From Vicinamibacteria bacterium (lineage in GTDB: Bacteria > Acidobacteriota > Vicinamibacteria > Fen-336): a stretch of DNA of 37,973 nt. The position numbers and the translations under genes were made by a program. Location: assembly GCA_023701125.1 (NCBI GenBank), contig JAMPXO010000038.1:1-37973 (forward strand), read 5' to 3'. The notes below the pieces were generated by a model, which worked only from the letters and a program-made list of their open reading frames with translations, did not search any database and had not been told where the DNA came from. Positions 6,727-32,062 of this stretch are shown here, piece by piece (the first letter of the stretch is position 1; each line of letters begins with the position of its first letter).

Positions 6727-9700
6727 TCAGCGCTTGCGCCGCAGCTCGCGGCGATGCACTCCGCGGCGGTCGCTGACGATCGGGCCGGCCAGCCGGTCGG
6801 GAGTCTCGAGCTCGAGCGTGACCTCGTAGGTCTCGCCGTCCAGGTCGCGCTCGCGGTAGGTCAGGACCTGGCCGTCGAACGAGACGTCCGAGTAGCGATC
6901 TCCGCTGCCCCCGCGGGCGAGGCGCACGCCGCCGCCCGCGTCGGCCGAGATGCGGACGGGATCGGGGTTCGGCTCGCCGTCCCAGTACTCGTGCCACTCG
7001 CCGACGAGCGCCTGCGCCGCCGCCGCGCCGTCCGAGGGCGGCACGGGCGCCGTGGCCGTCCCGCCGCGGAGCGTGGCCCACCAGGTCCAGCGCAGGCCGT
7101 TGACGTTCGAGCCGCTGCCCTCCATCCGCTGACCGCGGATCGTGCCCTTGTTCTCGGCGTACTGGCCGTTCATCTCCATGTAGACGGAGTCGCCGTCCTG
7201 GCGCCACGTGCCATTGCGGAAGCGACCGGTGCTGTAGTCGTACTCGAGCGTGCCGTCGGGGTGGAACGTGTACTCGTAGCGGCCGCCGGGAGTCTCCTCG
7301 CCCTCCCACGTGGTGCCGGCGAGTTGGACGAGGCCCGCGACGCTGTGGGCCACGGAAGCCGGGACCGGGGCCGCGGCCCAGCCGGGGTCGATGCGGTCGA
7401 GCGCCTCGCGCACGGCCTCGCGCACGGGCTGCTCCGGGTCGTCGCGGTACGCCATCAGCCCGGGCACCGCGTCTTTCGCCGCCGGCCCGAGCTCGCCGAT
7501 CGCGCGGGCGGCGATCGCGCGCCGCGTCGTGCCCGGTTCGCCCAGCGCTTTCAGGAAGATCGGCGCGTCGGCCGGGCCCGTCACGAACTCCTTGCCCATC
7601 CAGGCCACGGCGTCCTCCGCGGCGCGCCGGACCTGGTACTCCGGGTCGAGGCGCAGCCGCAGCAGCGCCTCGCGGTGCGGGGCCGCGCCGGCGCCCAGCG
7701 CGCCGAGGCCCCACGCGCCGTTGACGCGCCACGTGGAGTCGGACGACTCGAGGGCCGCGACGTAGACCGGCCGCGCGCGCTCCGGGTGGATCAGCCCCGC
7801 GCCGTGCAGCAGGCGGGTGGCCAGCGGGTCGCCGTTGGCATACGCCGCGAAGAGACCGCCGAAGAAGAACAGCACCAGCCCCGCGGCGACCGCGGCGGCA
7901 ATCGCCAGCCGACGCCGCCAGCGGCGGCGCACGACCTGGCGCGCGAGCGCCGGATCCACCTTCTCCAGGGCCTCGAACGCGAGGGCACGGACCTGTTCGT
8001 CGGCGTCCTTCGCCGCGGCCTCCGCGAGCGCGGGGCCGGCCGTGCGCAACGACGCGGCCAGCTCGGCGTGACCCGCGGCCTGACCGGCCATCGCGCCCAG
8101 CGCGCGGGCCGCGGCGCGACGCGGCGGCACGACCGGGTCGGCCAGCAGGTGGGCCAGGCCACGAACGGCGGCCGGGGTCGGCGTGCAGACCTCGGGCAAC
8201 GCGGTGGCCGCGGCCTCGCGCACCTCCGCGTCTGCGTCGCGCAAGGCGGCGCCGAGGGCGGGCCCCGCGGTGCGGGCCGCACGGCCGATCGCCTGCAGCG
8301 CGCTCACGCAGGCCAGGCGGGAGGCCGAGTCGGGACCCTGCAGGCCGCGGGCGAGGTCGGGCACGGCCTCGATCGCCGCGGGCAGCTTCGCCCAGCCGGC
8401 GTCGATCCGGGCCAGCGCCTGCTGCGCCGCCCGGGCCACCGCGCCCGTGCGGTCGGCGAGCAGCGCAGCGAGGACCGGGATCGCGGCCGGGTCGGCGAGT
8501 GCGCCGAGCGCCTCCGCGGCGGCGGAGCGGACCTCCTTGTGCGGGTCGTGCAGCGCCGTGGCGAGCGCGGCGCCGGCCGACGTGGCAGCGGGGCCCAACG
8601 CACCCAGCGCCTGCGCGGCCGCGCGGCGCGCCTTCGGTTGCTCGGCGCCCAGCGCGGCGATCAGGTCGGGCAGTGCCTCGCGGGCGCCCTCGCTGCGCGC
8701 CCAGTCGGCGTCGATCTGCACCAGCGCCGCCGGCGCGACCGCCGCCAACCCGGCCTCGGGGTCCGCCAGCAATCGCACGAGCGGGCCGATCGCGCGCGGG
8801 TCGCGGACCGCGCCCAGGGCGTTCAACGCCGCCTCGCGCACCGCCGGCTCGGGGTCGTGCAACACCATCAGCAACGACGGCACCGCGGCCTTGCCGAGGC
8901 CGACGGCGGCGGTGCAGGCCAGCGCCCGCACCCGGGCGTGTTGGTGGCGCAACGCGAACGTGATCTCGTCGGCGGCGGCGGCGCCCAGAGCCTTCAGCGC
9001 CTCGGCGGCGCCTTCGCGCACCGGCGCCTTCTCGTGATCGAGCGCCGCGGCCAGCGCGGCAGCGGCGGGCGCGCCCTGGCGGCCGAGCGCCGTGGCCGCG
9101 GCGCGACGCACGTCCTTGTCGCCGTCGGCGAGCGCGTGGATCAGCGCCGGGATCGCACGGCCCGAGGGGTCCTGGCCATGGCCGAGCGCCTCGGCGGCGC
9201 GCGTGCGGTCGTCGGCCGAGCCCTGGCTCAGCGCCTTCAACAACTCGGGCGTGCCTGCCAGGCCGAGCCGCATCCGCGTGTTGTGGACCGAGGGCAGGCT
9301 GGTGCCGATGTCCGAGCCCAGCTTCTTCAGCGCGTCGAGGTTCTCCTTGACCGCGGTGTCGTCGGGTGCCAGGTCCGCGGCGACGACGAGGTCCCCCGCC
9401 GCGTCCACCATCGCCTCGCGCATGCGGCCCTTGCGCGCGTCGCGCTCGCGGTCGTCGCGGCTGTTGCAGTCCGGGCACACGATGACCGGAATGTCCTTGA
9501 ACGTGAACTTGTAGAAGCGGCTGTAGATGCGCGAGCCGCAGGCCATGCAGTGGATCTCGATGTTGGCGTCGCCGGCCATGCCGATGCGGGCCGCCATCGC
9601 CGTCATCACGAACGTGTGGTCGCCGCGGCCGGCGCGCTCCGCGATGCGGGCGATGATCCAGGGCGGCTCCTGGGCGATCGCCATCGCCGGCTTCAGCTTC

Positions 9701-11238
9701 GCCATCGAGCGCTTGTTGAGGGCGCTGGCCAGGGCCTGGCCGACGACCTTGCGCTGCGGCTCTGGCAACTCGCCGCAGGCGCGGCCCATGTACACGCCGA
9801 CCAGCGGGCCGATCGACTCCTCCCACTCCTGGGTCTCGGCGCGGGCGCGCGCGCGCTCGGCGATCTCCAGCACCGGCGCCGGCAGGTCGTAGTAGCCCGC
9901 CGCGCACCAGTCGCCGCCGGTTTCCGTGTTCTTGCGGACGATGTCGAGGTTGTCCTGGACCCGCTGCTTCGTCGCCGCCGACGAGGCGGTCGCGAGCACC
10001 GGACCCAGCAGCTCGACGCAGCGGCGCCAGTCCTGGGTCTTGTTGCCGTAGGCGATCTGGCACGAGAGCGCCTTCAGTGCCACGTCGTCGTGGGCGGCCT
10101 CGCGCACCAGGTCGCCCGGCTCGAGCAGCGTGTCGAGCACGCGCAGCAGCGGCGTCGTCTGCTCCAGCAGGCGGCCGACCAGCGCGTCGGCGTGGACGGG
10201 GTCGCGGTCCGCCTCGGCCTCGGCAGTCGTGCACAGGGTCTTGATGCGCTGCCGCTGCGGCTCCAGCACGCGGTGGAGGGTGTCGACGACCAGCGCCGAG
10301 CGCTTCGGCGCCGCGGCGCCCTTGCGCTTGCGCGGCCCGCCTTTCGCCTTGACCGTCTTCTTGCACGCCGGGCACCACACCTGGCCCACCAGCTTGTCCA
10401 GGTCGACCGGTCCCTCGCACACCGCGCAGCGCGGCGCCTCGACGACGGCCGCGGGAGCCGGGGCCGGCGCCTCGTCGGCGGGCGGCGCATCCCACAGGTC
10501 GAGGTGGTGCACGTGGCGGGCGGCCGCGTCGAGGGCCGCGGACTCCGCCGCCTTCGCGGCCAGCTCGGCGCTGACCGAGAGCACCGCGCGCGGCAGCGAG
10601 GAGACGATGCCGTCGGCCTGCTCGGGGGTCAGCCGCGGGTCGGACAGCTCGGCCAGCCGTGCTCGCAACCGCTCGCGCAGGCCGGGGTCTTCGACCAGCC
10701 GGCGCCAGCGCCGGATCGCGTCTTCCCAACGCAGCTCGGTGCCATCGGTCGCGCCCTTCTCCTCGGCCTCGAGGGCCTGCAGGTGAGCGAGCACGGCGAG
10801 GTCGTGACGGGCGGCGAGCGCGGTGGCGCCGCCGGCCTGCTCCTGTTCCTGCCAGATCCGCTGCGCGGTCTCGAGGTCGCCCTTCGCCAGCGCCAGCAGG
10901 GCGGGGTCGGCGGCGCTGCGCTCGGCGGGCCAGAACCAGAACAGCTCGTCGACGATGCGGTCTTCGGGGTCGTGCAGCCGGCGCAGCGCCTCGCGGATCG
11001 CGTCGGAGTCGGGCGGCGGCTCGAGCGCCAGCGCGCCGCGGCCGTCGCCGCCCGGTGTCGCCAGCTTCTCCATCAGCTTCAGCCGATCGGCGCGGCGGGT
11101 GACGTCCCGGCCGCTGGCGTCGACCGGAAGGCCGGTGACGCGGAAGGCGTTGCGGCGGTAGAGATCGGGGTGGGCCGCCTCCATCAACGGCGCGAAGGCC
11201 ACGCCCCGTTCGCTGTCGGCACCGGCCGCTTCGCCCAT
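6727..11238 (-). CDS. J-like / zinc-ribbon / HEAT-repeat transmembrane protein with lipocalin-like C-terminus
   Basis: A 1503-aa protein and the last gene of the chaperone cluster. Residues about 29-52 (RNAFRVTGLPVDASGRDV) follow the J-domain pattern but lack HPD. Conserved WxWP-type sequence (ELFWFWP) follows near 98-104. Two zinc ribbons are present: C271/C274/C289/C292 and C564/C567/C588/C591. HEAT repeats fill about 650-1095, an RRRWRRR-flanked membrane helix spans about 1110-1133, and further HEAT repeats run to 1290. A lipocalin-like module at about 1303-1390 (GTTWEGEE, NGTWRQDGDSVYMEMN) is followed by a second beta domain. The positive-inside rule puts the N-terminus in the cytosol and the last 370 residues in the periplasm. 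The ATG at 11238 has GGAG 7 nt upstream. The same frame is open upstream, but that is shadow sequence of the Clp gene. The likely role is a membrane-anchored co-chaperone or scaffold (inference). Confidence 0.85.
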   Translation of the reverse strand: MGEAAGADSERGVAFAPLMEAAHPDLYRRNAFRVTGLPVDASGRDVTRRADRLKLMEKLATPGGDGRGALALEPPPDSDAIREALRRLHDPEDRIVDELFWFWPAERSAADPALLALAKGDLETAQRIWQEQEQAGGATALAARHDLAVLAHLQALEAEEKGATDGTELRWEDAIRRWRRLVEDPGLRERLRARLAELSDPRLTPEQADGIVSSLPRAVLSVSAELAAKAAESAALDAAARHVHHLDLWDAPPADEAPAPAPAAVVEAPRCAVCEGPVDLDKLVGQVWCPACKKTVKAKGGPRKRKGAAAPKRSALVVDTLHRVLEPQRQRIKTLCTTAEAEADRDPVHADALVGRLLEQTTPLLRVLDTLLEPGDLVREAAHDDVALKALSCQIAYGNKTQDWRRCVELLGPVLATASSAATKQRVQDNLDIVRKNTETGGDWCAAGYYDLPAPVLEIAERARARAETQEWEESIGPLVGVYMGRACGELPEPQRKVVGQALASALNKRSMAKLKPAMAIAQEPPWIIARIAERAGRGDHTFVMTAMAARIGMAGDANIEIHCMACGSRIYSRFYKFTFKDIPVIVCPDCNSRDDRERDARKGRMREAMVDAAGDLVVAADLAPDDTAVKENLDALKKLGSDIGTSLPSVHNTRMRLGLAGTPELLKALSQGSADDRTRAAEALGHGQDPSGRAIPALIHALADGDKDVRRAAATALGRQGAPAAAALAAALDHEKAPVREGAAEALKALGAAAADEITFALRHQHARVRALACTAAVGLGKAAVPSLLMVLHDPEPAVREAALNALGAVRDPRAIGPLVRLLADPEAGLAAVAPAALVQIDADWARSEGAREALPDLIAALGAEQPKARRAAAQALGALGPAATSAGAALATALHDPHKEVRSAAAEALGALADPAAIPVLAALLADRTGAVARAAQQALARIDAGWAKLPAAIEAVPDLARGLQGPDSASRLACVSALQAIGRAARTAGPALGAALRDADAEVREAAATALPEVCTPTPAAVRGLAHLLADPVVPPRRAAARALGAMAGQAAGHAELAASLRTAGPALAEAAAKDADEQVRALAFEALEKVDPALARQVVRRRWRRRLAIAAAVAAGLVLFFFGGLFAAYANGDPLATRLLHGAGLIHPERARPVYVAALESSDSTWRVNGAWGLGALGAGAAPHREALLRLRLDPEYQVRRAAEDAVAWMGKEFVTGPADAPIFLKALGEPGTTRRAIAARAIGELGPAAKDAVPGLMAYRDDPEQPVREAVREALDRIDPGWAAAPVPASVAHSVAGLVQLAGTTWEGEETPGGRYEYTFHPDGTLEYDYSTGRFRNGTWRQDGDSVYMEMNGQYAENKGTIRGQRMEGSGSNVNGLRWTWWATLRGGTATAPVPPSDGAAAAQALVGEWHEYWDGEPNPDPVRISADAGGGVRLARGGSGDRYSDVSFDGQVLTYRERDLDGETYEVTLELETPDRLAGPIVSDRRGVHRRELRRKR

Positions 11239-11264: not shown

Positions 11265-14222
11265 TCAGGCCAGCTCGACGTCTTCGCCCGACAGTCGTGC
11301 CCGCACGACGACGCCGCGTTCGAGGCCGCGGGCCCGGGTGCGGACCGGGCCGCCGATCGCGCGCTCGAAGCGGCGCAGGAAGCCGCGCGCGCCTTCGGCT
11401 TGCGCCAGCCCCTCGGCCACGAGTCGCTCGCGCAGCGCGGGCTCGACCTCGAGCGCCCCGCCGCCGTGCGCGTCCAGCTCGGCCGCCAGCGCCGCGAGCT
11501 GGCGCTCGAGCAGTGCTTCGTAGTCGGCGGCCGCGAGCGGCGCGAACGCCACCACGCGGTCGATGCGGGCGAGGAACTCGGGCCGGAAGGCGCGCTCGAG
11601 GTGGCCGTCGGCGCCAGGCTCCGCCTCGCCGGCGGCCGAGCCCACGAAGCCGATCGTGCCCTCGCCCTGCGGCGCGTTGCAGGTCAGGACGAACAGGTGG
11701 CGGCGGAAGTCGACGCAGCGCCCGCGCGAGTCGGTGGCCTGGCCCTGGTCGAACACCTGCAGGAACCAGTCGGCGACGCCGGGCGCCGCCTTCTCCATCT
11801 CGTCGAGCAGGATCAGGCCCTGCGGGTGGCCCTCGGTGAAGCGGAACAGCGCGCCCGGCTCCTCGTGGCCGACGAAGCCCGGCGGCGCGCCGGACAGCCG
11901 CGCGAGGTCGTGGCGCTCGCCGTACTCGCTCATGTTGAAGCGGCCGAGGGCGCGACCCCCGGCGTCGAAGAGGGCGCGGGCGAGGGTTTCGGCGGCCAGC
12001 GTCTTGCCCACGCCCGTGGGCCCGCTGAACAGCAACACCGCCAGCGGCCGCGGCGAGGCCGGGTCGCGGGTGGCGGCGGCGGCCAGCGTCTCGCGGATCG
12101 CGGCGATGGCCGGTTCCTGGCCGACCAGCGCCCTGCGCAACGCGGCCGCCGCGCGGTCCGCGTCGAGCGCGCCCGCGGCGGTGACCGCGATCCCGTACTG
12201 CTCCTCGAGCACGGCCTCGATCTCGCGCGGCCCGACCCGCGGTGGCTGCTTCGCCGGCGCCGCCTCCTTCTCCGACAGTGACGACACGCAGGCGGCGGCG
12301 GCGGCGTTCTCCAGCAAGTCGATCGCCTTGTCGGGCAGCCGCCGCGCGGGCAGCAGCCGGGCCGAGAGGGTGACCGCGGCGGCGATCGCCTCGGGCGCCA
12401 ACTGCACGTGCTGGCGCTCCTCGATCCGCCGCGCCCACGTCTCGCACATCGCCAGCGCCTCGGCCTCGGACGGTTCGCCGAGCCGCAACAACTGGAACCG
12501 ACGCACGAAGGCGGCCTCGCCCTTGACGTGGCGCTCGAACTCCTCGGTCGTGGTCGCGCCGATGCAGCGGAAGTCGTCGCGGGCGAGCGCCGGCTTCAGG
12601 ATGTTGGCGACGTCGATCGCGCCCTCGCCGCCGCCTGCGCCCATCACCAGGTGGATCTCGTCGAGGAACAGCACGAGGTCGGGGTCCTCGCAGGCCTCGG
12701 ACAGCAGGCCCTTCAGCCGCTGCTCGAGGTCGCCGCGATAGCGGGTGCCGGCGACGAGGTCGGACACGCGCAGCTCCACGATCCGCAGCCGGCGCAGCAC
12801 CTCGCGGGCGTCGGGTGCCACCAGCCGCTGCGCGAAGCCCTCGACCAGCGCGGTCTTGCCGACGCCGGCGTCGCCGACCAGCAGCACGTTGCGCTTCGAC
12901 GTGCGTTGCAGGTAGCGGGCGAGGGTGCGCATCTCGGCCTGGCGGCCGATCACGGGCGAGAGCCGACCGGCGCGGGCCAGCTCCGTGAGGTCGCGGCCGA
13001 GCGGCGCGCCCAGCTCGCCCTTCAGCGCGGCCCGTCGGCGGGGCTCGGGCTCTCGTTCGACGGGGGCTGCGGAGCTCGCGTGAGGCGCGCCGGGCTCGTA
13101 CGGCGCGGCCTTGTCGGAGGCCGGCGGCTTGACGAAAGCCGCCTGGCCGATCTCGCCCACCTCGAACACCTCGACGGGCTCGTCGAGGCCCTTCACCTTG
13201 TAGAGGCCGTGCGAGCGCCACTCGATCGGCCCGAGGTCCGCGGGCGGCGTCGCAGCGAGACCCTCGCGGGCGGCGTCGTGCACGCCGCGGTCGGTCAGCA
13301 CCTGGTTGCCCGCGGCCAGCGACGAGATCCGCGATGCGGTGTCGATGGTGATGCCGAACAGCGGGTCGGAGAGCCCGCTGCCGCCGGCGGCCTTGCTCAG
13401 CACCGGGCCCGCGAACATCCCCATCCGCACCTTGAGCCCGACCTGCGCCAGGTCCTTGTGCGCGCGCAGCCGCGCCTGCACCGCGAGGCAGAAGCGCACC
13501 GCGTCCTCCTCCGCGGAGAACGCGAGCAGGAAGGCGTCGCCGATGGTCTTGATCTCGCGGCCGCCGGGATGCGCCTGCAACAGGTCGCGGAAGACGTTGT
13601 CGTGGGCGCGGAAGATGCGGGCGGCCTCGACGTCGCCGTAGCGGCGCTTGATCGCCATCGAGCCTTCCATGTCGGTCAGCACCAGCGTCACCCGTTCCAG
13701 AGCGAAGCGGGCGACGAACTCGTCGATCCGGGTCTCCCACTCCAGCGGGACCTTGGGCGACGCATGGCCGTCGAGGAACGGCGCGACGTCGGGCGGCGGC
13801 GCCTGCAGCATCGCCCGCAGCAGGTGGACGGGAGCGATCGCGAGGGCCGGGCCCTCGAGCGCGAACGGCGCGGCGGCCTCCAGCAGTTCTCGGGTCGACG
13901 CGGCGAGCGAGAGCCGGCGGATCGGGCGCTCCTCGTCGTCGGGTCGGGCGGCGCGGCGGACCTTGCGCCGCAGCCGGGTCAGCTCGGACGCGTCCATGCC
14001 GAGCACCGCGCGGGCCTCCGCGCCCTGCGCCCGCAGCTCGCGGGCGACGTCCGGCGCGACGCCGGCGCCTTCGAGGTCGGTGTCGAGCGCGTCGTCCGCC
14101 AGCTTGAGCAGCGTCAACAGCACGTGCAGCGGCGCGATCTCCTCGCGGCCGGCGAGGCAGGCCTCGCCGTTCGCGAGCGAGAGCAGCGTCTGCGCGGCCG
14201 CGCTGGTCGGGATCGCCTTCAC
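11265..14222 (-). CDS. Clp-type AAA+ unfoldase with embedded class III nucleotidyl cyclase domain
   Basis: A 985-aa protein. Residues 1-150 resemble the Clp_N double repeat. Residues about 178-355 form a class III cyclase domain: metal Asp184 (VLTDMEGSMA), Lys225/Asp229 (EIKTIGDAF), Asp286, and D294...R298 (TIDTASRI), where Asn is usual at 294. The first AAA+ module has Walker A GDAGVGKT (450-457), pore loop RYRGDLE and DEIH (521-524). The second has GPTGVGKT (734-741), pore loop GAPPGFVG and DEMEK (807-811). The long ClpB middle domain is absent. An IGF tripeptide (857-859) sits where ClpA/ClpC carry the ClpP-docking loop. GTG at 14222 overlaps the previous stop by four bases (GTGA); the open frame upstream is shadow. 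It probably unfolds or disaggregates proteins under cyclic-nucleotide or nucleotide-dependent control (inference). Confidence 0.92.
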   Translation of the reverse strand: MKAIPTSAAAQTLLSLANGEACLAGREEIAPLHVLLTLLKLADDALDTDLEGAGVAPDVARELRAQGAEARAVLGMDASELTRLRRKVRRAARPDDEERPIRRLSLAASTRELLEAAAPFALEGPALAIAPVHLLRAMLQAPPPDVAPFLDGHASPKVPLEWETRIDEFVARFALERVTLVLTDMEGSMAIKRRYGDVEAARIFRAHDNVFRDLLQAHPGGREIKTIGDAFLLAFSAEEDAVRFCLAVQARLRAHKDLAQVGLKVRMGMFAGPVLSKAAGGSGLSDPLFGITIDTASRISSLAAGNQVLTDRGVHDAAREGLAATPPADLGPIEWRSHGLYKVKGLDEPVEVFEVGEIGQAAFVKPPASDKAAPYEPGAPHASSAAPVEREPEPRRRAALKGELGAPLGRDLTELARAGRLSPVIGRQAEMRTLARYLQRTSKRNVLLVGDAGVGKTALVEGFAQRLVAPDAREVLRRLRIVELRVSDLVAGTRYRGDLEQRLKGLLSEACEDPDLVLFLDEIHLVMGAGGGEGAIDVANILKPALARDDFRCIGATTTEEFERHVKGEAAFVRRFQLLRLGEPSEAEALAMCETWARRIEERQHVQLAPEAIAAAVTLSARLLPARRLPDKAIDLLENAAAAACVSSLSEKEAAPAKQPPRVGPREIEAVLEEQYGIAVTAAGALDADRAAAALRRALVGQEPAIAAIRETLAAAATRDPASPRPLAVLLFSGPTGVGKTLAAETLARALFDAGGRALGRFNMSEYGERHDLARLSGAPPGFVGHEEPGALFRFTEGHPQGLILLDEMEKAAPGVADWFLQVFDQGQATDSRGRCVDFRRHLFVLTCNAPQGEGTIGFVGSAAGEAEPGADGHLERAFRPEFLARIDRVVAFAPLAAADYEALLERQLAALAAELDAHGGGALEVEPALRERLVAEGLAQAEGARGFLRRFERAIGGPVRTRARGLERGVVVRARLSGEDVELA

Positions 14223-15082
14223 GGCGCGCCCCGGGGCGCCAGGCGCAACTCCACGCTGCGGCGCGCACGGCGGGCGGAGGGATCGAGGCCGGGCGGCACT
14301 TCGGTCGCGGCCCGCAGCGTCACGGCCTCGGGCGGGAACGGCGCGTGCTCGCGCAGCGCATCGAGGGCCACCGCGGCGCGGGCCAGGCCCAGCGCCACGT
14401 TGTCTCGCCACGCGGCGCCAGGGCGCAGCGTGCGGTCGTCGGCGAGGCCGGTCACCGTCAGGGCGTGGGTGGCGGCGATCGGGGCGAGCTGGCGGCCGAG
14501 CTCAACCAGTGTCTCGCGCGCGCCGGGCCGCAGCTCGCTGCCCCGCGAGAAGAGGCCCTCGGGGAAGCGGATCACGCGGGCGCCGGCCTCGGTGGAGACG
14601 ACGGAACCAGCGACGTCGAGGGCGGGGAGCGCGGGTGCCGGGGCGAGAGCGAGGCCGGGCTCCGGGCCTCCCCCCACCGCCCGACCGGCCCGCTCCCCGG
14701 TGTCGGTGATGCGGGCCGGGAAGATCAGGAAGGCGGCGATCAGGATCGCCAGCACCGCGAGCACGTGCCCGCCGCCGTGCTTCGTGCGCAGCGCGGCAAT
14801 GCGTCGCAGGCCCGCGGCGGCAGGCGCGTGGTCCGGGGCCGTGCGCCGCAGCTCCGTCCACGACGCCTCGGCGTCGTCGAGGCGACCCTGCTGGGCGCGG
14901 ATGCGGGCCAGCAGGTCGAGCGCCTCCGGGCCGCCGTCCGCGGCACCGACTTCGCGCACGACAGACGCAGCCGCCTCGAGCCGCCCCTCGCGCGCCAGCT
15001 CCGCCGCGCGCGCCAGCCGCACGGCGGCCAGCGCCTGGCGGGCCTGGCTGGCCGCGTCCATCGGGCTCGCGACGTGGAGCAA
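14219..15082 (-). CDS. TPR-like / transmembrane / OmpA-like protein
   Basis: About 287 aa. The cytosolic N-terminal 95 residues look like TPR helices (ARAAELAREGRLEAAASVV, LDDAEASWTELRRTAPDHAPA). One membrane helix follows (VLAVLAILIAAFLIFPA, about 106-122), then a proline-rich linker. The C-terminal domain has OmpA-like order: IRFPEGLFSRGSELRPGA, LTVTGLADD, DNVALGLARAAVALDAL, and ARRARRSVELRL. An OmpA-like domain in this topology usually faces the periplasm and may touch peptidoglycan. The start is TTG at 15082 because TAGGAGGTG pairs well with 16S rRNA five bases upstream. The GTG at 15088 overlaps that site and is a poorer choice. The gene lies between the Hsp70 and Clp genes and overlaps the Clp start. 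Confidence 0.82.
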   Translation of the reverse strand: MLHVASPMDAASQARQALAAVRLARAAELAREGRLEAAASVVREVGAADGGPEALDLLARIRAQQGRLDDAEASWTELRRTAPDHAPAAAGLRRIAALRTKHGGGHVLAVLAILIAAFLIFPARITDTGERAGRAVGGGPEPGLALAPAPALPALDVAGSVVSTEAGARVIRFPEGLFSRGSELRPGARETLVELGRQLAPIAATHALTVTGLADDRTLRPGAAWRDNVALGLARAAVALDALREHAPFPPEAVTLRAATEVPPGLDPSARRARRSVELRLAPRGAP

Positions 15083-15087
15083 GGGCA

Positions 15088-15093
15088 CCTCCT
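15088..15093 (-). promoter_or_regulatory. Strong Shine-Dalgarno overlapping the Hsp70 stop codon
   Basis: AGGAGG on the minus strand shares bases with the Hsp70 stop TAG (15094-15092) and is spaced 5 nt from TTG at 15082. This decides the start and suggests translational coupling. Confidence 0.65.
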
Positions 15094-17590
15094 AGCGAAT
15101 CAACCCCGAGAGCACCTTGTCGCGGTCCTCGTCGCCCGCCGGCAGCAGACCGGCGAGCTGGCGGACCGCGGCCTTCAGCGCCTCGACGTCGTTGTTGTTG
15201 ATCGCGCGGCGGGCCTGGGCGATGTACTCGTCCGCGCGCGCGGGATCGGTCATCAGGTGCTTCTTGGTCTCCAGGAAGCCGAGGCGGCCGACCCAGAAGC
15301 CGGGCTGGCGCAGCACGATCACCGCGCCGAGCCGGTCCATCTCCTGGACGCGGCCGCGGAGCAGGTCGGGGTCGCGCTCCTTGACGGCGCGGCGCACGTC
15401 CTGCTCGAGCGCGGCGAACGCCTGCTTCTCCTCCGCGGTGGCCTTGAAGTCGGGGTCGTTGACGATCTTGCGCTCGACCTCCACTTCTTTCTCCGCGGAG
15501 GCGACCAGCGCAGGCCACTCCAGGGCGTCTTCGACCTCGTCGATCGCCGACTTCAGGTCGAGCAGCCGCTTCTCGCACTTGTCGGCCGCGTCGGGATCGC
15601 CCGCGCCCGCCGCCAGCGAACCTTCGACCTCGCTGACCGCGTGCTCGCGCTCGATCCGCGCCAGCGCCTCCCCCGCCCGCGGGTCGCCGGTCTGGCGGCC
15701 CTTGTCGCGCGCCTCCTCCAGCCGCTTCTTCTGCCGCTCCACGTCGTTGCGCAGCTCGTCGGGGTGGCGCGCCTGCTTGCGGTACTCGTCGTAGCTGATG
15801 ACCTTGCCGAACTCGTTGTCGAGGATCGGCAGGTAGGCGGTCGCCTTCAGCAGCCGCGAGGCGTCGATCTCGATCGTGACCTCGACCTCGCTGCCGGCGG
15901 GCACGTCGCGCTGGACCTGGTCCGAGGTGATCTCCAGGTTGCCGATCAACTGGTTGCGGTCCGCGCGCGGGTTCTGGCCCTCCATCACCGGGATCTTGAT
16001 CGAGTGGTGGGCGTTGCCGCGGCGCACGTCGATCGCGGTGCGCAGCACCTTCAGCCGCCGCGCGGGCAGCGGCGTGCCCTTGTCGAGCAGCCACTCCATC
16101 TCGTTGTTGGCGAGGGCGACGCCGACCGAGTGGATCAGCGGCGGGTCGGTGATCGACAACCCGACCGTGTAGACGAGCTGGTCGGGGCTGACCGGCAGCA
16201 GCCGGCCGGTCTGGTCGCAGAGCTCGATGCGGAAGGTGTTGGGTCGCCCCTTCTCCGCCCACAGGCTGGTCATGAAGCCGCCGTTCGCGGCGATCGCCGT
16301 GCGCCCGCTGCGCCACGGCGGCCGGGCCTCGGCGTTGACGAACTCGACCGTGTAGTCGGAGACGTCGGCGCCGTCGGGGCTGGTCACCCGGCCGCCGACC
16401 AGCGGCTCGGTGTCCGCGCCGACCGGCTTGTACTCGAGCTGGATCTGGCACTGGCCCGCGACCGGGGCCGCGACGGACGTCGACTCCAGGCGCTGGGTGC
16501 CGGAGAAGATCGCGGCGCCGCGGGCGACCACGGTCAGCGGGTCGATCGAGAACTCGAGCGGGATGCCGAGGCCCTCGGCCAGCCGCTGGCGCAGGTACGG
16601 GGTCAGCGTCGGGCCGCCGACGAGCAGCACCTTCTCGACGTCGCCCGCGCCCAGCCGGCGCTCGGACAGCACCTTGCGGCAGATGTTGATCGCACGCTCG
16701 ACGTAGGGCTCGATCAGAGGCTCGACGTCGCTGCGCCGCAGCTCGTACTCGAACAGCACGCTCTCGCCGCGGTCGTCCTGGCACAGGCCGTCGATCGCGA
16801 TCTCGACCGAGCCCTCGCGCGACAGCCGGATCTTGGCCAGCTCGGCGTTCTGCTTGAGCTTGGCGATCGCCCCCGCGTGCTTGAGGTTGGCCCGCGACAG
16901 GTCGCTCACGGGGTGCTGCTTGTGGACGGCGGGGATCAACAACTGCTCGACGATCGACCAGTCGATCAGCTTGCCGCCGAGGTGGTTGTCGCCGCCGTGG
17001 TTGACGACCTGGATCACGCCGTCGCGGACGTGGATCACGGCCGCGTCGAAGGTGCCGCCGCCGAAGTCGTAGACGAGCCAGAACACCTTGTCGCTCTCGC
17101 TCTGGAAGCCGTAGGCGAGGGCGGCCGCCACGGGCTCCTGCAGCAGCGGGCTGGCGACGAAGCCGGCTCGCTGCGCCGCCTGCTTGGTCGCCTCGCACTG
17201 CGGCAGCTCGAACGCCGCAGGCACCGTGATCACGGCCGCCTCGACGTTCTCGCCCGAGCGCTGGGCCACGTCGCGCTTGAGCTCCTTCAGCACCTCGGCG
17301 GACAGGTCCTCGGGCCGCAGCGCGTGGCCGCTGCGCTTGAACGTGTACTCGCGGCCGGTGCCCATCTGCAGCTTGAACTCGCTGAAGGCGTTCTCCGGGT
17401 CGATCACCAGCCGCTCGTAGGCGCGGCGGCCGACACGCAAGGCGCCGGTCTTGTCCTGGAACACCGCGGAAGGCGTGTACTCGAAGCCCTCGTTGTTCTT
17501 GAACACGTGGGGCTCGGTGCCCTCGAGCACCGCGATGCTGCTGTTGGTGGTGCCGAGGTCGATGCCGTAGTCGATCGTCGCCCGTGCCAT
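15092..17590 (-). CDS. Hsp70 (DnaK-like) chaperone with extra beta domain and long helical tail
   Basis: An 832-aa Hsp70 of a non-housekeeping class. The nucleotide-binding domain spans 1-365, with phosphate loops GIDLGTTNSS (9-18) and VYDFGGGTFD (173-182) and adenosine motif VLLVGGPTLTP (321-331). About 125 beta-rich residues (375-500) with no counterpart in DnaK separate it from the substrate-binding beta domain (505-590, IKIPVMEGQN, VTIEIDASRLLKATA). A 240-residue charged helical tail follows (RQKKRLEEARDKGRQ, RRAINNNDVEALKAAVRQLAG). No EEVD ends it. The ATG at 17590 has GGAG 8 nt upstream and lies 3 nt after the GrpE-like gene. Partners are expected to be that exchange factor, the J-like protein and the Clp protein. 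Confidence 0.95.
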   Translation of the reverse strand: MARATIDYGIDLGTTNSSIAVLEGTEPHVFKNNEGFEYTPSAVFQDKTGALRVGRRAYERLVIDPENAFSEFKLQMGTGREYTFKRSGHALRPEDLSAEVLKELKRDVAQRSGENVEAAVITVPAAFELPQCEATKQAAQRAGFVASPLLQEPVAAALAYGFQSESDKVFWLVYDFGGGTFDAAVIHVRDGVIQVVNHGGDNHLGGKLIDWSIVEQLLIPAVHKQHPVSDLSRANLKHAGAIAKLKQNAELAKIRLSREGSVEIAIDGLCQDDRGESVLFEYELRRSDVEPLIEPYVERAINICRKVLSERRLGAGDVEKVLLVGGPTLTPYLRQRLAEGLGIPLEFSIDPLTVVARGAAIFSGTQRLESTSVAAPVAGQCQIQLEYKPVGADTEPLVGGRVTSPDGADVSDYTVEFVNAEARPPWRSGRTAIAANGGFMTSLWAEKGRPNTFRIELCDQTGRLLPVSPDQLVYTVGLSITDPPLIHSVGVALANNEMEWLLDKGTPLPARRLKVLRTAIDVRRGNAHHSIKIPVMEGQNPRADRNQLIGNLEITSDQVQRDVPAGSEVEVTIEIDASRLLKATAYLPILDNEFGKVISYDEYRKQARHPDELRNDVERQKKRLEEARDKGRQTGDPRAGEALARIEREHAVSEVEGSLAAGAGDPDAADKCEKRLLDLKSAIDEVEDALEWPALVASAEKEVEVERKIVNDPDFKATAEEKQAFAALEQDVRRAVKERDPDLLRGRVQEMDRLGAVIVLRQPGFWVGRLGFLETKKHLMTDPARADEYIAQARRAINNNDVEALKAAVRQLAGLLPAGDEDRDKVLSGLIR

Positions 17591-17593
17591 GGT

Positions 17594-18157
17594 TCACGCT
17601 CCAGGAGGGCCCGCGGCGGCGGGCGTGCCCACGATCACCTCGCCCATCTGCAGCGGGGCGTCGCGGAAGTAGAGGGTCGGCTTGACGGTCTCGATCACGG
17701 TCTCGCGGGCGAGGCCGGGCGTCGGCTGGAAGGCGAGCACGCGCAGCGCGAGCCCCTCGTCGAACGGTGCGCCGGTGTGGTCGATCACCTGCAGCCCGGC
17801 CTGGGCCAGCACGTCCCACGTCGACTGCAGGTGGCGATACGGGCGCCGCATGTTCTCCAGCGGGCGGTCGCTGCCCGGTTCCAGCATCTTCTGGCGCAGC
17901 CGCCACAGGCCGGTCGCCGCCTCGGCCAGAAACGCGAAGCGCTCGGCCGGCGGCGCGGCGGGAAGGGCGGCGGCACTCGCGCTCCCCGCGCTGGCGGTCA
18001 CCGCAGCGGCGACCGCGGCAGACAGCGATTGCAGCAGCGGCGCCCAGTCGGGCGCCTCGATCCGGAACTCGGCCGGCTGCCGCCGCTGACGCAGTTCGGC
18101 CAGCCGCGCGGCCCACGTCCACGCTCGCTGTCCGTCCGTCCCGATCGCGAGGGCCAT
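17594..18157 (-). CDS. Divergent GrpE-like nucleotide exchange factor
   Basis: 187 aa. The C-terminal 75 residues follow the GrpE order: a helix ending LWRLRQKMLEPG, NMRRPYRHLQSTWDVLAQ, then the beta domain AGLQVIDHTGAPFDEG (120-135), ETVIETVKPTLYF and GEVIVGTPA. This matches the canonical Gv.vId..GepFDP...tVvev...Gy.......r.a.ViVg. The N-terminal half is Ala-rich and shorter than the long GrpE coiled coil, so the dimer stalk may be reduced or absent. It should release ADP from the Hsp70 encoded 3 nt downstream. The start ATG follows GAGGAG with only a 3-nt gap, so the exact start is slightly uncertain. The kinase gene ends 30 nt upstream. Confidence 0.78.
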   Translation of the reverse strand: MALAIGTDGQRAWTWAARLAELRQRRQPAEFRIEAPDWAPLLQSLSAAVAAAVTASAGSASAAALPAAPPAERFAFLAEAATGLWRLRQKMLEPGSDRPLENMRRPYRHLQSTWDVLAQAGLQVIDHTGAPFDEGLALRVLAFQPTPGLARETVIETVKPTLYFRDAPLQMGEVIVGTPAAAGPPGA

Positions 18158-18187: not shown

Positions 18188-19297
18188 CTACATCGCCACG
18201 CCCCGCCGCCACAGCCGGACCTGGTTCGCGTAGCGCTCGCGCAGGTCCGGCCACTTGTTGAACGCCTCTTCCATCTGGTCGGCCGCGTCGGCGAAGCGGC
18301 CGCGCTCGCGGGCCAGGGAAACGGCCTGGCGCGCCATCGTCTCGGCCTGGCGCTGGTCGCCCGGCGTGTGCATGCCGAGCGCGCTCTTCGACTCGTCGAG
18401 GCCGCTGCCCTTGGCCCGCGCGCCCGGCGCGCCGGCGCCGGCGGGCTGCCAGCGCTCGAGGTCGGCGAGCAGCTCGCGCGCGGAGGGGTGGCGCTCCTCG
18501 GGTTTCAGCGACAGCGCGCGGAACAGGATCTGGTCGAGGCCCGCGTCGGCCTTGGCGTTGAGTCGCGAGGGCGGGATCAGCGGCCGCTCGAAGCGACCCG
18601 GGTCGGCGGCCGCCTCGGTGTCGCCCAGGCCCGCGTAGGGCAGGCGGTCGGTCAGCAGCAGGTACAGCGTGCAGCCGAGCGCCCACACGTCGCCCGCCGC
18701 GGAGTCGGTCTGGAAGTCGCGCAGCGCCTCGGGGGCCTTGAACGAGCGGGTGCCGCGCGCGGAAGCCAGCAGCGTCAGCGGGTTGACGCGCTTGGCGAGC
18801 CCGAAGTCGCTGATCCGCGCCTGCAGGCCGTTCTGGTCGTAGCCGACCAGGATGTTCTGCGGCTTGATGTCGCGGTGGATGATCGGCGGCACCTCGGCGT
18901 GGGCGAGAGCCAGCCCGCGGCAGACCTGGCGCAGGATCTCGACCGCGGTCTCGACCGGCACGAACTGGGCGCCGTGCGAGCGCCAGAACTGCTCGAGCGA
19001 ACCGCCGGCGACGTACTCCATCGTGAAGAAGCCGCAGGTGCCGCGCGAGGTCTCGGTCACGTTGGCGTCGAACACGCGGACGATGTTGGGGTGGCCGATG
19101 CGCGACAGCAGGATCGCCTCGCCCAGCATCTGCTCGGTCTCCTCCATGGTCATGCCGACCATCTTGAAGACCTTCATCGCCTGGCGGCCGAGGAAGCGGT
19201 GCTTGACGCGATAGACCTCGGCGAACGCGCCTTCGCCGAGCGGACGTTCGACCTCGTAGGTTCCGCGGATGAGCTGCCCCTCGCGAAGCAGGCTCAT
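18188..19297 (-). CDS. Cytosolic Ser/Thr protein kinase, first gene of the chaperone operon
   Basis: A 369-aa Hanks-type kinase with an intact core: glycine loop GEGAFAEV (21-28), Lys42 in AMKVFK, HRDIKPQN (141-148), DFG (164-166) and APE (188-190). After the kinase lobe come about 85 residues with a linker and TPR-like helices (MARQAVSLARERGRFADAADQMEEAF). No membrane segment is visible, unlike the two kinases at 30323-34422. The ATG at 19297 has GGGAG 6 nt upstream. The same frame is open for 148 more codons but holds no kinase sequence. It heads a 12.6 kb co-directional run, so it may phosphorylate the chaperones or their co-factors (inference). Confidence 0.93.
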   Translation of the reverse strand: MSLLREGQLIRGTYEVERPLGEGAFAEVYRVKHRFLGRQAMKVFKMVGMTMEETEQMLGEAILLSRIGHPNIVRVFDANVTETSRGTCGFFTMEYVAGGSLEQFWRSHGAQFVPVETAVEILRQVCRGLALAHAEVPPIIHRDIKPQNILVGYDQNGLQARISDFGLAKRVNPLTLLASARGTRSFKAPEALRDFQTDSAAGDVWALGCTLYLLLTDRLPYAGLGDTEAAADPGRFERPLIPPSRLNAKADAGLDQILFRALSLKPEERHPSARELLADLERWQPAGAGAPGARAKGSGLDESKSALGMHTPGDQRQAETMARQAVSLARERGRFADAADQMEEAFNKWPDLRERYANQVRLWRRGVAM

Positions 19298-19310
19298 GGC
19301 CTGCTCCCGA

Positions 19311-19324
19311 CAACCCTCGGGTTG
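19311..19324 (-). promoter_or_regulatory. Inverted repeat in the leader of the chaperone operon
   Basis: A 6-bp inverted repeat, CAACCC-TC-GGGTTG, lies 14 nt before the kinase start codon and just upstream of its Shine-Dalgarno. It could be an operator or a small RNA hairpin. Confidence 0.3.
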
Positions 19325-19412
19325 GCCGTGCGATGGGCCACGGCGACGCTCCCGGTCCTGTGGTGAGGTTTCGGGCGGTGGGGCGAGCGTCCCCACCCCC
19401 GTTTCGATCGTG

Positions 19413-19443
19413 ACGATACGCCTCGTCCCCCCCGCCCTGTCCA
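19413..19443 (-). promoter_or_regulatory. Candidate promoter of the chaperone operon
   Basis: On the minus strand TGGACA (19443-19438) is followed after 19 nt by TATCGT (19418-19413), about 115 nt before the kinase start. The same TATCGT occurs upstream of the amidohydrolase gene. An odd-length dyad, ATCGTGACGAT (19407-19417), overlaps the -10. I see neither a CIRCE element nor a clear sigma-32 box. Confidence 0.4.
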
Positions 19444-19492
19444 GCCCTTTGCGGAGCGACGGCGCGGGGCCGGGGTGACGGCCGCGGCGTGG

Positions 19493-19498
19493 TAGCGT
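19493..19498 (+). promoter_or_regulatory. Candidate -10 of a leaderless transcript (DUF2721 gene)
   Basis: TAGCGT ends 7 nt before ATG at 19506 with no Shine-Dalgarno between. Confidence 0.38.
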
Positions 19499-19505
19499 CG
19501 CGGCC

Positions 19506-19994
19506 ATGGCCGAGAACGCCGCGCTCTCCCTGCTCTCCGCGATGATCACGCCGGCCGTGCTGATCTCCGCCAGCGGCATGCTGATCCTGTCGACCGCCAG
19601 CCGGCTGGCGCGGATCGTCGACCGCGTGCGCACGCTCGCCCGCCAGATCGAGGAGACGGGCCAGGGCCCGGACGACGAGCTGTTGGCCGAGCGTCGCGCC
19701 GAGCTGGAGCGCCAGATCGGCACCCACACGACGCGCGGCAAGCTGATCCAGGCCTCGCTGACCTCGCTCTACGTGTCGCTGGCGCTGTTCGTGGCCGCGA
19801 CCGTCGTCATCCCGCTGGTCGCCCTGGCCGGCGCGCTCGCCTACCTGCCGGTCGCGTTCGGCGTCCTCGGCACGCTGTCGCTGTTCCTCGGCACGCTGTT
19901 CCTGATCCGCGAGACAGGCATGGCACTGACCTCGATCGGCGAGGAGATGGCCTTCGCCCGCCGCATCGCGGATCGCTCCCGCCGCGCCCGGTAA
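19506..19994 (+). CDS. DUF2721-family membrane protein
   Basis: 162 aa. The opening segment PAVLISASGMLILSTASRLARIVDRVRTL is the signature of DUF2721: a membrane helix followed by a basic amphipathic helix. A charged coiled segment follows (about 45-75), and then two more membrane helices (about 88-112 and 114-135). The family is common but its function is unknown. The start has a -10-like hexamer seven bases upstream and no Shine-Dalgarno. It is divergent from the chaperone operon; the 208 bp between them hold the operon's candidate promoter. Confidence 0.85.
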   Translation: MAENAALSLLSAMITPAVLISASGMLILSTASRLARIVDRVRTLARQIEETGQGPDDELLAERRAELERQIGTHTTRGKLIQASLTSLYVSLALFVAATVVIPLVALAGALAYLPVAFGVLGTLSLFLGTLFLIRETGMALTSIGEEMAFARRIADRSRRAR

Positions 19995-20049
19995 ACCGCG
20001 GCCCTTCCCCGCCGTTTTCAGCGTTGAGCGACAGTGCGCGAGGAAGGTG

Positions 20050-20610
20050 TCACGAGTGCAGGTCCATCGCGTTCAGGATGGCCTCGTCTTCGATCTGCGC
20101 ATAGGCCTTCGCAAACTCACGCAGCCACTCGGGCGAGGGGGTTTCCTGGAGGCTGATCGGCGCCTCCCGCCACTCCCCGCGATGGAGGAGTGCCGCGGGA
20201 GGCGCTGCGAGAAGTGGCTCGGGGTCAATGTCCTGCTTCCGGGCACGGGTGACGTGGGTCACCCGCTGGCGCCGGAGGCCGAACCAGCGCGACTCGATAC
20301 GTGGCTCCCGGAGCCGAAGAAATGCGCCAAAGCGGCCGCCGGCTTCGTACCAGTCGAACTTCGCCCTGGGGTTCTCTGTCGACCACGTGAAGAGGCGCCC
20401 CTCGTGCACACCCCCTTCTTCCTCACGCCACTCCCTCAGCTTCCCGACAAGCTCCTCGATGTTCGTCGGCTGGAGCCCGAAGTGCCTCGCCATCAGCACC
20501 ACCTCGTCGGGCTCCAGGAAGTGTCGATAGGGCTCGACGCGGTGATAGTCGGCAAACGGCTCCAGTTCCTCGTCGACGTTCGTGCCCACCACCAGGCAGC
20601 TGTAGTGCAT
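20050..20610 (-). CDS. Hypothetical protein of a phage/bacterial WDWYxxGGRW-type family
   Basis: 186 aa. It begins MHYSCLVVGTNVDEELEPFADY and contains KFDWYEAGGRFGAFLRL near residue 85. Together these recall a family of phage and bacterial proteins that start with a short beta strand plus an (E)QLxPF motif and contain K(W/F)DWYxxGGR. No function is known. Base composition looks lower in GC than the neighbours, with AT-containing codons such as TTT and TAT, which fits recent acquisition. The ATG at 20610 has GGAGG 6 nt upstream. It converges on the DUF2721 gene and sits 33 nt downstream of the amidohydrolase stop. Confidence 0.72.
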   Translation of the reverse strand: MHYSCLVVGTNVDEELEPFADYHRVEPYRHFLEPDEVVLMARHFGLQPTNIEELVGKLREWREEEGGVHEGRLFTWSTENPRAKFDWYEAGGRFGAFLRLREPRIESRWFGLRRQRVTHVTRARKQDIDPEPLLAAPPAALLHRGEWREAPISLQETPSPEWLREFAKAYAQIEDEAILNAMDLHS

Positions 20611-29470: not shown

Positions 29471-29668
29471 TCAGCAGGCCGTGGCCAGCCCGGACTCGCG
29501 CCGGGCATTCGTGCGGGCGTCGATCTCGTGGGCGATGGTCAGCAGCATCGTCTCGCACGAGGGGCACAGCCACAGGCTGCCGTCGAGCCCCGGTTCCTCT
29601 TCGCTGAACACCTCGATCCGCTGGTAGCAGCGGGTGTTCTCCTCGCAGCGTTCGCATCGCGTGCACAT
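29471..29668 (-). CDS. Small Cys-rich, probably zinc-binding protein
   Basis: 65 aa with MCTRCERCEENTRC at the start (C2, C5, C8, C14) and CPSC at 35-38, enough for a zinc ribbon or short zinc knuckles. The remainder is a helix (TMLLTIAHEIDARTNARR). A GAGGGG lies about 9 nt before the ATG. It is divergent from the ECF sigma gene, about 100 bp away. I do not recognise the family; coding potential rests on the paired cysteines. Confidence 0.5.
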   Translation of the reverse strand: MCTRCERCEENTRCYQRIEVFSEEEPGLDGSLWLCPSCETMLLTIAHEIDARTNARRESGLATAC

Positions 29669-29750
29669 GTGGCCTGTCCCCTCTTCTGACCGGGATGCGT
29701 CGAACGCGGCCGGATCGGCTCACGGGTTGGACGAGGGGTGTGAGCCCGAG

Positions 29751-29756
29751 CACAAT
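29751..29756 (+). promoter_or_regulatory. Candidate -10 before the ECF sigma gene
   Basis: CACAAT ends 9 nt before the proposed TTG start at 29766. There is no Shine-Dalgarno. The match is weak and rests on similar geometry elsewhere. Confidence 0.25.
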
Positions 29757-29765
29757 CGGGGCATC

Positions 29766-30326
29766 TTGTCCGACGACGCACCGCTCACCGAGCTGTTGCA
29801 GGCCTGGTCGGCCGGCGACACCGCCGCCCGCGAGGCGCTGCTGCCGCGCGTCTACGGCGAGTTGCGGCGGCGCGCCAACGCCTACCTGCGGCGCGAGCGG
29901 CCGGGCCACACCCTGCAGCCGACGGCGCTGGTCCACGAGGTCTACCTGCGGCTCGCCGCGCAGCACGTCGACTGGCAGAGCCGCGGCCACTTCTTCGGCC
30001 TCGCCTCGCAGTCGATGCGCCGCATCCTGGTCGACCACGCCCGCCACGAGGGCCGGGCCAAGCGCGGCGGCGGGGCGCTGAAAGTGGAGCTGTCGGAGGA
30101 CGTGGCCGGCGCGGCGCCCGCGGGCGACGTCGACCTGGAGGCGCTCGACGCGGCCCTCGAGGAGCTGGCGCGGCTCGACCCGCGCCAGGGCCGGATCGTC
30201 GAGCTGCGCTACTTCGGCGGGCTGTCGATCGAGGAGACGGCCGCCGTGCTCGACCTCTCCCCCGCCACCGTCAAGCGCGACTGGACGCTGGCCCGCGCCT
30301 TTCTGCACCAGCGGCTGCGCGCATGA
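29766..30326 (+). CDS. ECF-type RNA polymerase sigma factor (TIGR02999-like)
   Basis: 186 aa. Region 2 reads LLQAWSAGDTAAREALLPRVYGELRRRA...HTLQPTALVHEVYLRL, then HFFGLASQSMRRILVDHAR. Region 4 is LDPRQGRIVELRYFGGLSIEETAAVLDLSPATVKRDWTLARAFL. This is the sigma group abundant in Acidobacteriota and Planctomycetota, usually linked to Ser/Thr kinases, not to a classic anti-sigma factor. The ATG at 29634 would add 44 unrelated residues overlapping the divergent gene. TTG at 29766 gives the usual N-terminus. The kinase gene overlaps the stop (ATGA), so phosphorylation may control the sigma factor (inference). Confidence 0.9.
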   Translation: MSDDAPLTELLQAWSAGDTAAREALLPRVYGELRRRANAYLRRERPGHTLQPTALVHEVYLRLAAQHVDWQSRGHFFGLASQSMRRILVDHARHEGRAKRGGGALKVELSEDVAGAAPAGDVDLEALDAALEELARLDPRQGRIVELRYFGGLSIEETAAVLDLSPATVKRDWTLARAFLHQRLRA

Positions 30327-32062
30327 CGCCCGAGCGCTGGGCCCGCATCAAGCAGGCGTTCGAGGCGGTGATGGACGCGCCCCCCGAGCAGCGACGCGAC
30401 GCGGTCGAGCGGGCCTGTGCGGGGGACGAAGGCCTGCGCGACGAGGTGCTGGCGCTGCTCGCGGCCGGCGACGCCGCCGAGGAGCAGCAGTTCATCGAGA
30501 AGCCGGTCAGTGCCTTCGACGACTACCGCGGCCCCGCCGAGGAGCCGGCCCCACCGCGCCACATCGGCCCGTTCGAGATCCACGGCGAGCTGGGCCACGG
30601 CGGCATGGGCAGCGTCTACCGCGCCCACCGCCGCGACGACCCGAGCCGCACGCCCGTGGCCGTCAAGGTGATGCGCGCCGGCCTCGCGACCGGCGCGCTG
30701 CGCGACCGCTTCTACAAGGAGCAGGCCATCCTCGCGGCACTCGACCACCCCGGCATCGCCCGGCTGCTGGAGGCCGGCGTGACCGAGGCCGGCTCGCCGT
30801 GGCTGGCGATGGAGCTGATCGACGGCCTGCCGCTCACCACCTGGGCCCATCGCCAGCAGCTGGCGACCCGCGACCGGGTGCAACTGTTCGTGCAGGTCTG
30901 CGACGCGATCGCGTACGCCCACGAGCGCCGCGTCGTCCACCGCGACCTGAAGCCCGCCAACATCCTGGTCACCCACGGCGGCGAGGTGCGGCTGCTGGAC
31001 TTCGGGATCGCCAAGCTGCTGCCCGGCGCCGACGAGATGCAGGCGATGTCGACCGTCACCCACGCCGGGCTGATGACGATCGACTACGCGAGCCCGGAGC
31101 AGGTGCTGGGCGAGCCGGTCGACGACCGCAGCGACGTCTACGCGCTGGGCGTCCTGCTGTGCGAGCTGCTGACCGGGCGTCGCCCGTACCGCGTCACCTC
31201 GCGGCGGCCCGAGGCGTTCCTCAAGGCGATGCTGATCGACGCGCCGCAGCCGCCTTCCGCCCTCGCCCGCACCGAACGCCCTGGCGATCCGCTGGCGGAG
31301 GCGCTGGCGGCCGAGCTCGCCGGCGACCTCGACGCGATCGTGCTGCACGCACTGGCCAAGGCGCCCGAGGACCGCTGCCCCTCGGCGGCCGCCTTCGCCG
31401 ACGACCTGCGCCGCCACCTCGCGGGCCGTGCGCCGGCCGCACGCACGCTGCCCGTGACCCGCAAGCTGGGCCGCATCGCGCGCCGGCGTGGTCGCGTCGT
31501 CGTCGCCGCCGCGCTGACCGCGGTCGTGCTCGGCGGCGCCGCGACCTGGTGGCGGGCGGCCGGGGGCGGGCCGACGGCCGGCTCCGCGGCGCGCGCGGCG
31601 GAAGACGGGCGGCGGGCGGCGGCGACTGCGCTCGACGTGGTCGAGGAGAGCTTCGCCGGGCTCGGCGACGCTCCCGTCGCGGACGAAGAGGTGCGCGCGC
31701 GGCTGACCGTCGAGCTCGATCGCGCGGCGCTGCTGGCCGAGGCCGTCGACGACCCACAGGTGCGGCGGCGCTGGGCCGCGGCCGAAAGCCGGCTCGGCGC
31801 GCTGGGCGGCAGTGGCGCGCTCGCCCGGTTGCGGCGTTCGCAGCAGCTCTATGCCGAGCTGGCCGCCGCCGACCCCGCCGACGCCCGGGCCGCGCTGCAG
31901 GCAGCGGAGGCCCAGCACCGGCTCGCCGCGGCCCGCCACGACTGCGTTCTGCTCGCGGCCGCGGCGCGGGCGGCGCGCACGATCGGCGAACTCGACGAGG
32001 CGGAGACGCAGGCCGCGGCGTGGGAGCGCGAGGCCGCCGCCTGCGCCAGCGGGGCGCCATGA
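30323..32062 (+). CDS. Transmembrane Ser/Thr protein kinase
   Basis: 579 aa. The N-terminal 70 residues (PERWARIKQAFEAVMDAPPEQR) are the typical lead-in of ECF-linked kinases. The kinase domain has GHGGMGSV (91-98), Lys115, HRDLKPAN (206-213), DFG (226-228) and SPEQ. A membrane helix lies near 390-411 (VVVAAALTAVVLGGAATWW). The outer part is Ala-rich helical, shorter than the TPR domains often seen here. Its start overlaps the sigma stop and its stop overlaps the next kinase start, both as ATGA, so the three proteins are made together. Confidence 0.93.
   Translation: MTPERWARIKQAFEAVMDAPPEQRRDAVERACAGDEGLRDEVLALLAAGDAAEEQQFIEKPVSAFDDYRGPAEEPAPPRHIGPFEIHGELGHGGMGSVYRAHRRDDPSRTPVAVKVMRAGLATGALRDRFYKEQAILAALDHPGIARLLEAGVTEAGSPWLAMELIDGLPLTTWAHRQQLATRDRVQLFVQVCDAIAYAHERRVVHRDLKPANILVTHGGEVRLLDFGIAKLLPGADEMQAMSTVTHAGLMTIDYASPEQVLGEPVDDRSDVYALGVLLCELLTGRRPYRVTSRRPEAFLKAMLIDAPQPPSALARTERPGDPLAEALAAELAGDLDAIVLHALAKAPEDRCPSAAAFADDLRRHLAGRAPAARTLPVTRKLGRIARRRGRVVVAAALTAVVLGGAATWWRAAGGGPTAGSAARAAEDGRRAAATALDVVEESFAGLGDAPVADEEVRARLTVELDRAALLAEAVDDPQVRRRWAAAESRLGALGGSGALARLRRSQQLYAELAAADPADARAALQAAEAQHRLAAARHDCVLLAAAARAARTIGELDEAETQAAAWEREAAACASGAP

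Follow-up and report, generated by a model that had tools for sequence, protein, structure and literature searches.

The gene cluster

The window (the whole stretch of 37,973 nucleotides analysed here, from the genome of a Vicinamibacteria bacterium) carries a minus-strand gene cluster in the order Ser/Thr kinase, GrpE-like protein, Hsp70, TPR/membrane protein, ClpA-like AAA+ protein and J-like protein, with gaps of at most 30 bases among the first genes and two genes standing between the J-like gene and that of the Hsp70. The flanking genes are ordinary metabolic ones. Elsewhere in the window (29634-32062), an ECF sigma factor gene is followed by a Ser/Thr kinase gene, a common acidobacterial pair that is unrelated to the Hsp70 cluster. 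The first-pass annotation described the last gene of the cluster and overlooked the conserved Hsp70 operon, together with the loss of the HPD receptor in its Hsp70. The genes, and the extra domain of the Hsp70, are the following:

18188..19303, minus: Ser/Thr protein kinase, heading the cluster (Pfam; start inferred)
17594..18157, minus: GrpE-like protein, matching the C-terminal part of GrpE only, under the Pfam cut-off
15092..17590, minus: Hsp70 with NBD, extra beta domain, SBD-beta and helical tail; HPD-receptor residues lost
16157..16468, minus: extra beta-rich domain of the Hsp70, about residues 375-478, at the NBD/SBD-beta junction
14219..15088, minus: TPR protein with a membrane helix; an OmpA domain is present in the homologue of locus L033
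11265..14222, minus: AAA+ unfoldase of ClpA-like type that carries a guanylate-cyclase-type insert and the IGF tripeptide and lacks the ClpB middle domain (start inferred)
6727..11238, minus: J-like/HEAT/membrane protein of 1503 residues, the cluster's final gene (ORF, Pfam)

The final gene (ORF 11238..6727, minus strand) runs for 4512 bases from ATG to TGA and codes for 1503 residues, and its GC content by codon position (0.78/0.55/0.95, in a window of 73% GC) is of the coding type, indicating that it is a real gene. Pfam recognizes in its product chiefly HEAT and similar repeats. Its parts can be placed as follows:

10903..11193, minus: J-like domain without HPD, residues 16-112 (alignment, PDB profile search, AlphaFold, Foldseek, VIA, hhalign)
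11008..11064, minus: 19-residue loop between helices II and III, residues 59-77, where HPD would be expected (AlphaFold, alignment)
10363..10428, minus: first Cys4 motif, residues 271-292, an insertion relative to most relatives
9466..9549, minus: second Cys4 motif, residues 564-591, with a counterpart in locus L034
7954..9231, minus: HEAT repeats, about residues 670-1095 (Pfam HEAT_2, E 1.5e-55)
7846..7908, minus: predicted membrane helix, about residues 1111-1131, with RRRWRRR just before it (hydropathy)
6730..7344, minus: C-terminal beta-rich region, residues 1299-1503 (sequence)

A J-like domain without HPD

The J-like segment, in which FRVTGLPVDASGRDV forms residues 32-46 (11145-11101) of the 1503-residue protein, is kept in 19 aligned rows from 18 loci, with N15, R79 and W86 (segment numbering) common to all of them, and HPD is absent from the helix II-III position in all 19. 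The letters HPD do occur at residues 23-25, but they precede helix I and are missing from 17 of the 19 rows; the idea that they form a displaced motif was therefore dismissed, and the string was taken as a chance occurrence. Neither Pfam nor NCBIfam searches give a name for the domain; PF00226 does not match it in the window and matches two of the 19 rows weakly (best E 0.085). When the N-terminus was compared with the PDB as a single sequence, nothing useful was found, and only the family profile matched: the profile of the 19 domains retrieved 16 sequences at E<10, 14 of which are J domains, collinear with it (best E 0.018). In hhalign, this profile aligned to the J domains of the host genome with P 2.3e-5 over 60 columns.

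AlphaFold predicts a four-helix model for the domain (pLDDT 82.5, pTM 0.73), with helices at protein residues 43-58, 78-89 and 91-100. The Foldseek list for this model against the PDB consists almost entirely of J domains (probability up to 0.98, although with weak E-values, the best being 0.35), and VIA superimposes it on the J domain of CbpA with Z 7.3 over 72 residues at 3.2 A, all Z scores staying below 8. Each of these scores is weak by itself, and the assignment is made because the independent profile and fold lists agree; with medium strength, residues 16-112 are predicted to adopt a J-type fold without HPD. Measured against the marks of a J domain, the predicted four-helix fold is there, while the HPD loop and the PF00226 match are lacking. 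The first-pass annotation had already read residues 20-110 as J-like but devoid of HPD, which the profile and the predicted fold bear out; comparison of that fold with J domains, run as a check, did not return an unrelated fold.

Variable modules behind the J-like domain

The J-like domain and a helical core are the sole parts of the 1503-residue protein that are conserved among its relatives; judged from the sequences, its ribbons, HEAT repeats and membrane helix, like the beta domains at the C-terminus, are add-ons that vary. Two Cys4 ribbons, each a single CxxC-x14/20-CxxC unit, could be formed by the four CxxC motifs (271/289 and 564/588). A DnaJ-type (class A) zinc finger was considered and rejected, since only plain CxxC pairs are present, without CxxCxGxG repeats. 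For this reason, and also because the first ribbon is missing from most relatives, the resemblance to the zinc-binding part of DnaJ suggested by the first-pass annotation does not hold. The HEAT repeats and the single strong hydrophobic helix that it had described were recovered by Pfam and by hydropathy, respectively, whereas its lipocalin-like C-terminus is unconfirmed: the beta-rich region, which has few relatives, gave no Pfam match at E<1 and no PDB sequence match at E<10. Of the architecture proposed on these grounds, client capture in the cytosol is plausible, and a ligand-sensing barrel in the periplasm is without support. What had been observed in this protein was true in its main point, and the interpretation given to it only partly.

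Relatives of the cluster

Relatives of the first ~500 residues, collected by scanning 84,980 species genomes and by several genome-set searches, are found in Acidobacteriota, Accumulibacter, Thermodesulfobacteriota, Lentisphaerae and Methanothrix; one further match (L020) was dropped as a helical-repeat match. The gene is sporadic, occurring in 6 of 396 genomes in the window's phylum and in 1 of 300, 4 of 345, 1 of 196 and 5 of 288 in four other groups, counts that each include the genome used as centre. It adjoins an Hsp70 gene in every testable match (locus L038 ends before the Hsp70 position), and the order J-like, GrpE, Hsp70 is kept across phyla and in one archaeon. The fullest clusters have kinase, J-like, GrpE-like, Hsp70, TPR and Clp genes in this order; a kinase gene comes first in the window and in 7 of the 17 loci related to it. 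The window is alone in having the J-like gene at the cluster end. The C-terminal part is swapped freely: the window protein has HEAT repeats, helix and beta region there, L021 has 17 TPR, L038 has Sel1 repeats, L004 and L019 combine membrane helices with a ribbon-like Cys4 motif, and L006 and L040 end in a CFI-box.

Several loci show peculiarities of their own. In the Thermodesulfobacteriota cluster of L006, Clp is followed by an extra J gene (18234-20351) that reads HLD where HPD would be and has a PF00226 match, a membrane helix, TPR and a zinc ribbon. In Methanothrix there is a second, NBD-only Hsp70 (L008:10820-12169) with a degenerate first phosphate loop (NYGIYLGEEYA), otherwise almost identical to its neighbour. 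The Haliscomenobacter plasmid pHALHY02 (L040:732-20949) carries SIR2, WD40, a J-like protein with CFI-box, Hsp70, a kinase-AAA fusion and TerB, adjoining the BREX genes brxL and pglZ. In other plasmid clusters (L041-L044), AAA proteins occur together with an Hsp70 devoid of R167 and a small GrpE-wing-like protein; an NPF..L J-like stretch opens some of the neighbours, and the Polaromonas cluster lies near zorA.

The Hsp70 lacks the HPD receptor

The Hsp70 of the window is recognized by PF00012 (E 7.1e-83), and its NBD matches that of DnaK with the ATPase residues kept. In the complex of DnaK with DnaJ, D35 of HPD bonds exactly R167 and Q378 (PMC8215388), and R167 relays to the linker and the SBD (PMC7289447). 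An alignment was made of 22 cluster-type Hsp70s (18 from 17 loci with a J-like gene; the other four come from plasmid clusters whose J-like partner was either assigned by eye or not seen) and the two DnaKs of the host genome. Arg167 is absent from all 22 cluster Hsp70s, which have P, S, I, E, V, A or H there, and so is Gln378, which is always F or Y; Asn170 is replaced by Gln in 21 of the 22, and Thr173 by V, I or L. E171, P143 and T199 are kept in all 22, and both host DnaKs retain these three residues as well as R167 and Q378. An invariant K73 of the cluster Hsp70s is the likely counterpart of DnaK K70. The DVLLLD linker motif is not recognizable in these proteins.

A beta-rich segment of ~100 residues is inserted between the NBD and SBD-beta, and SBD-beta itself is intact (VIA Z 16.6 to the SBD of BiP and DnaK). 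Since the extra domain was modelled together with SBD-beta, whose matches fill the structural list, no fold is claimed for it. In sum, an NBD with ATPase residues and an SBD-beta are present, and the DnaK-type R167/Q378 pair and DVLLLD are not. The host genome also encodes, at L064:369-3434, an Hsp70-like protein in which R167 is Gly and N170 is Glu; it also has EEPVAA and forms a fusion with a long region. No J gene lies within 15 kb, so that loss of R167 is not unique to the J-like/Hsp70 pair.

The Clp unfoldase

The tripeptide IGF is present at the ClpP-docking loop of the window Clp protein and of its three compared homologues (4/4), and none of the four has an insertion between the lid and AAA2 that would represent the ClpB middle domain. 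A ClpB disaggregase was thus ruled out for this gene, and the two features together suggest that the protein more likely serves degradation than disaggregation. The window protein (11265-14222) has a class III cyclase-type insert after the Clp N-domain, in which D seems to replace the usual N of the NxxxR motif; this insert is missing from the three homologues.

Proposed function and alternatives

The 1503-residue protein probably (at about 0.58) serves the Hsp70 of its own operon as a J-like co-chaperone that selects clients, working independently of HPD, and the best reading of the cluster as a whole, based on sequences and models, is a dedicated HPD-independent J/Hsp70/Clp module with putative ATPase stimulation. 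What is seen is a predicted J fold without HPD, linkage of the genes, and the joint absence of HPD and its receptor residues. The C-terminal variability among relatives, as in client-selecting J proteins, also counts in favour. Against it, CJD1 and other known J-like domains lacking HPD do not function with Hsp70 (PMC3196505), the Foldseek E-values and VIA Z scores are weak, PF00226 does not match the window domain, R167 is also lost in the Hsp70-like protein of the host that has no J gene nearby, and two genes separate the J-like gene of the window from that of the Hsp70. Since HPD is lost on the J-like helper and Arg167 and Gln378 on the Hsp70, the pair probably uses another switch. That the two jointly gave up the HPD-R167/Q378 trigger and now rely on another allosteric mechanism, the substrate domain being preceded by an extra beta domain, has about even odds.

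In such a module, the J-like domain would bind the Hsp70 directly, docking through helices II-III, and would trigger or gate ATP hydrolysis by contacts other than D35-R167/Q378. The helical core, ribbons and HEAT repeats may keep clients close to the inner membrane, the GrpE-like protein would reset the Hsp70, and the ClpA-like unfoldase (IGF) would hand the clients to ClpP, with the kinase possibly regulating the whole.

It is also conceivable, if unlikely, that the J-like domain attaches to the Hsp70 and delivers it to membrane clients without triggering it, with hydrolysis under the control of the client, the kinase or the extra beta domain. The absence of HPD, R167 and Q378 alike and the leading position of the kinase gene, in the window as in 7 of the 17 related loci, would fit a tether of this type, but the Hsp70 retains the proline switch and the catalytic residues through which the J signal is relayed.

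Another proposal concerns purpose only, and is compatible with the mechanism preferred here: that the cluster is a conflict or anti-phage module guarding against invaders rather than taking part in ordinary protein quality control. Its sporadic spread and variable C-terminal modules, the BREX genes adjoining the Haliscomenobacter cluster, zorA near the Polaromonas Hsp70, and the presence of Hsp70 with GrpE in described conflict systems (PMC7159879) would agree with this. However, the neighbours in the window are ordinary metabolic genes, and PADLOC, which names kinase, AAA+ and HEAT parts only, by general similarity, finds nothing for the Hsp70 or the GrpE-like protein and matched the J-like protein through its HEAT repeats only. 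A defensive role is unlikely.

A Pam16-type decoy, in which the HPD-less domain pairs with and controls a canonical HPD J protein, has precedents in Tim16-Tim14 and CJD1-ARC6 (PMC3196505) and candidate partners in seven canonical J domains elsewhere in the host genome, but it is very improbable here, with no intact HPD J gene in the examined flanks of any locus (the extra J gene of L006 has HLD) and a partner Hsp70 without the HPD receptor.

Comparison with known systems

The HPD-independent co-chaperone proposed here shares with J-domain proteins (DnaJ, PF00226) the predicted four-helix J fold, a place before GrpE/Hsp70 (in the relatives) and a variable client-binding C-terminal part, but the window domain has neither HPD nor a Pfam match, and the window Hsp70 neither R167 nor Q378. 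Pam16/Tim16, ARC6 and CJD1 have a J-like fold without HPD too; they are eukaryotic or plastid proteins that regulate other J proteins or division, whereas the window domain is operon-linked to an Hsp70 lacking the HPD receptor. In E. coli, HscC with DjlB/DjlC likewise consists of a dedicated Hsp70 and membrane-anchored J proteins, although HscC is reported without GrpE interaction (PMC8215388), while a GrpE-like gene is common beside the cluster Hsp70, and the J domain here is without HPD. In GAP1-N2 GTPase conflict systems, too, a partner that bears J or TPR accompanies Hsp70 and GrpE; unlike the window cluster, in which no GTPase was recognized, these systems are reported to have a DnaJ domain and a central GTPase (PMC7159879).

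A search of the open-access literature found no description of this J-like/GrpE/Hsp70/Clp operon. HPD is regarded as the invariant and essential trigger of every J protein, and Hsp70 allostery as hinging on the D35-R167 contact. The broader result here is that HPD and its receptor are both absent from a conserved operon of J-like, Hsp70 and Clp genes. One kinase-headed unit unites Hsp70, a GrpE-like protein and a ClpP-type unfoldase, and both sides of the HPD contact are missing while the J fold and the ATPase core are kept, which poses directly the question of whether HPD is the sole way to fire an Hsp70.
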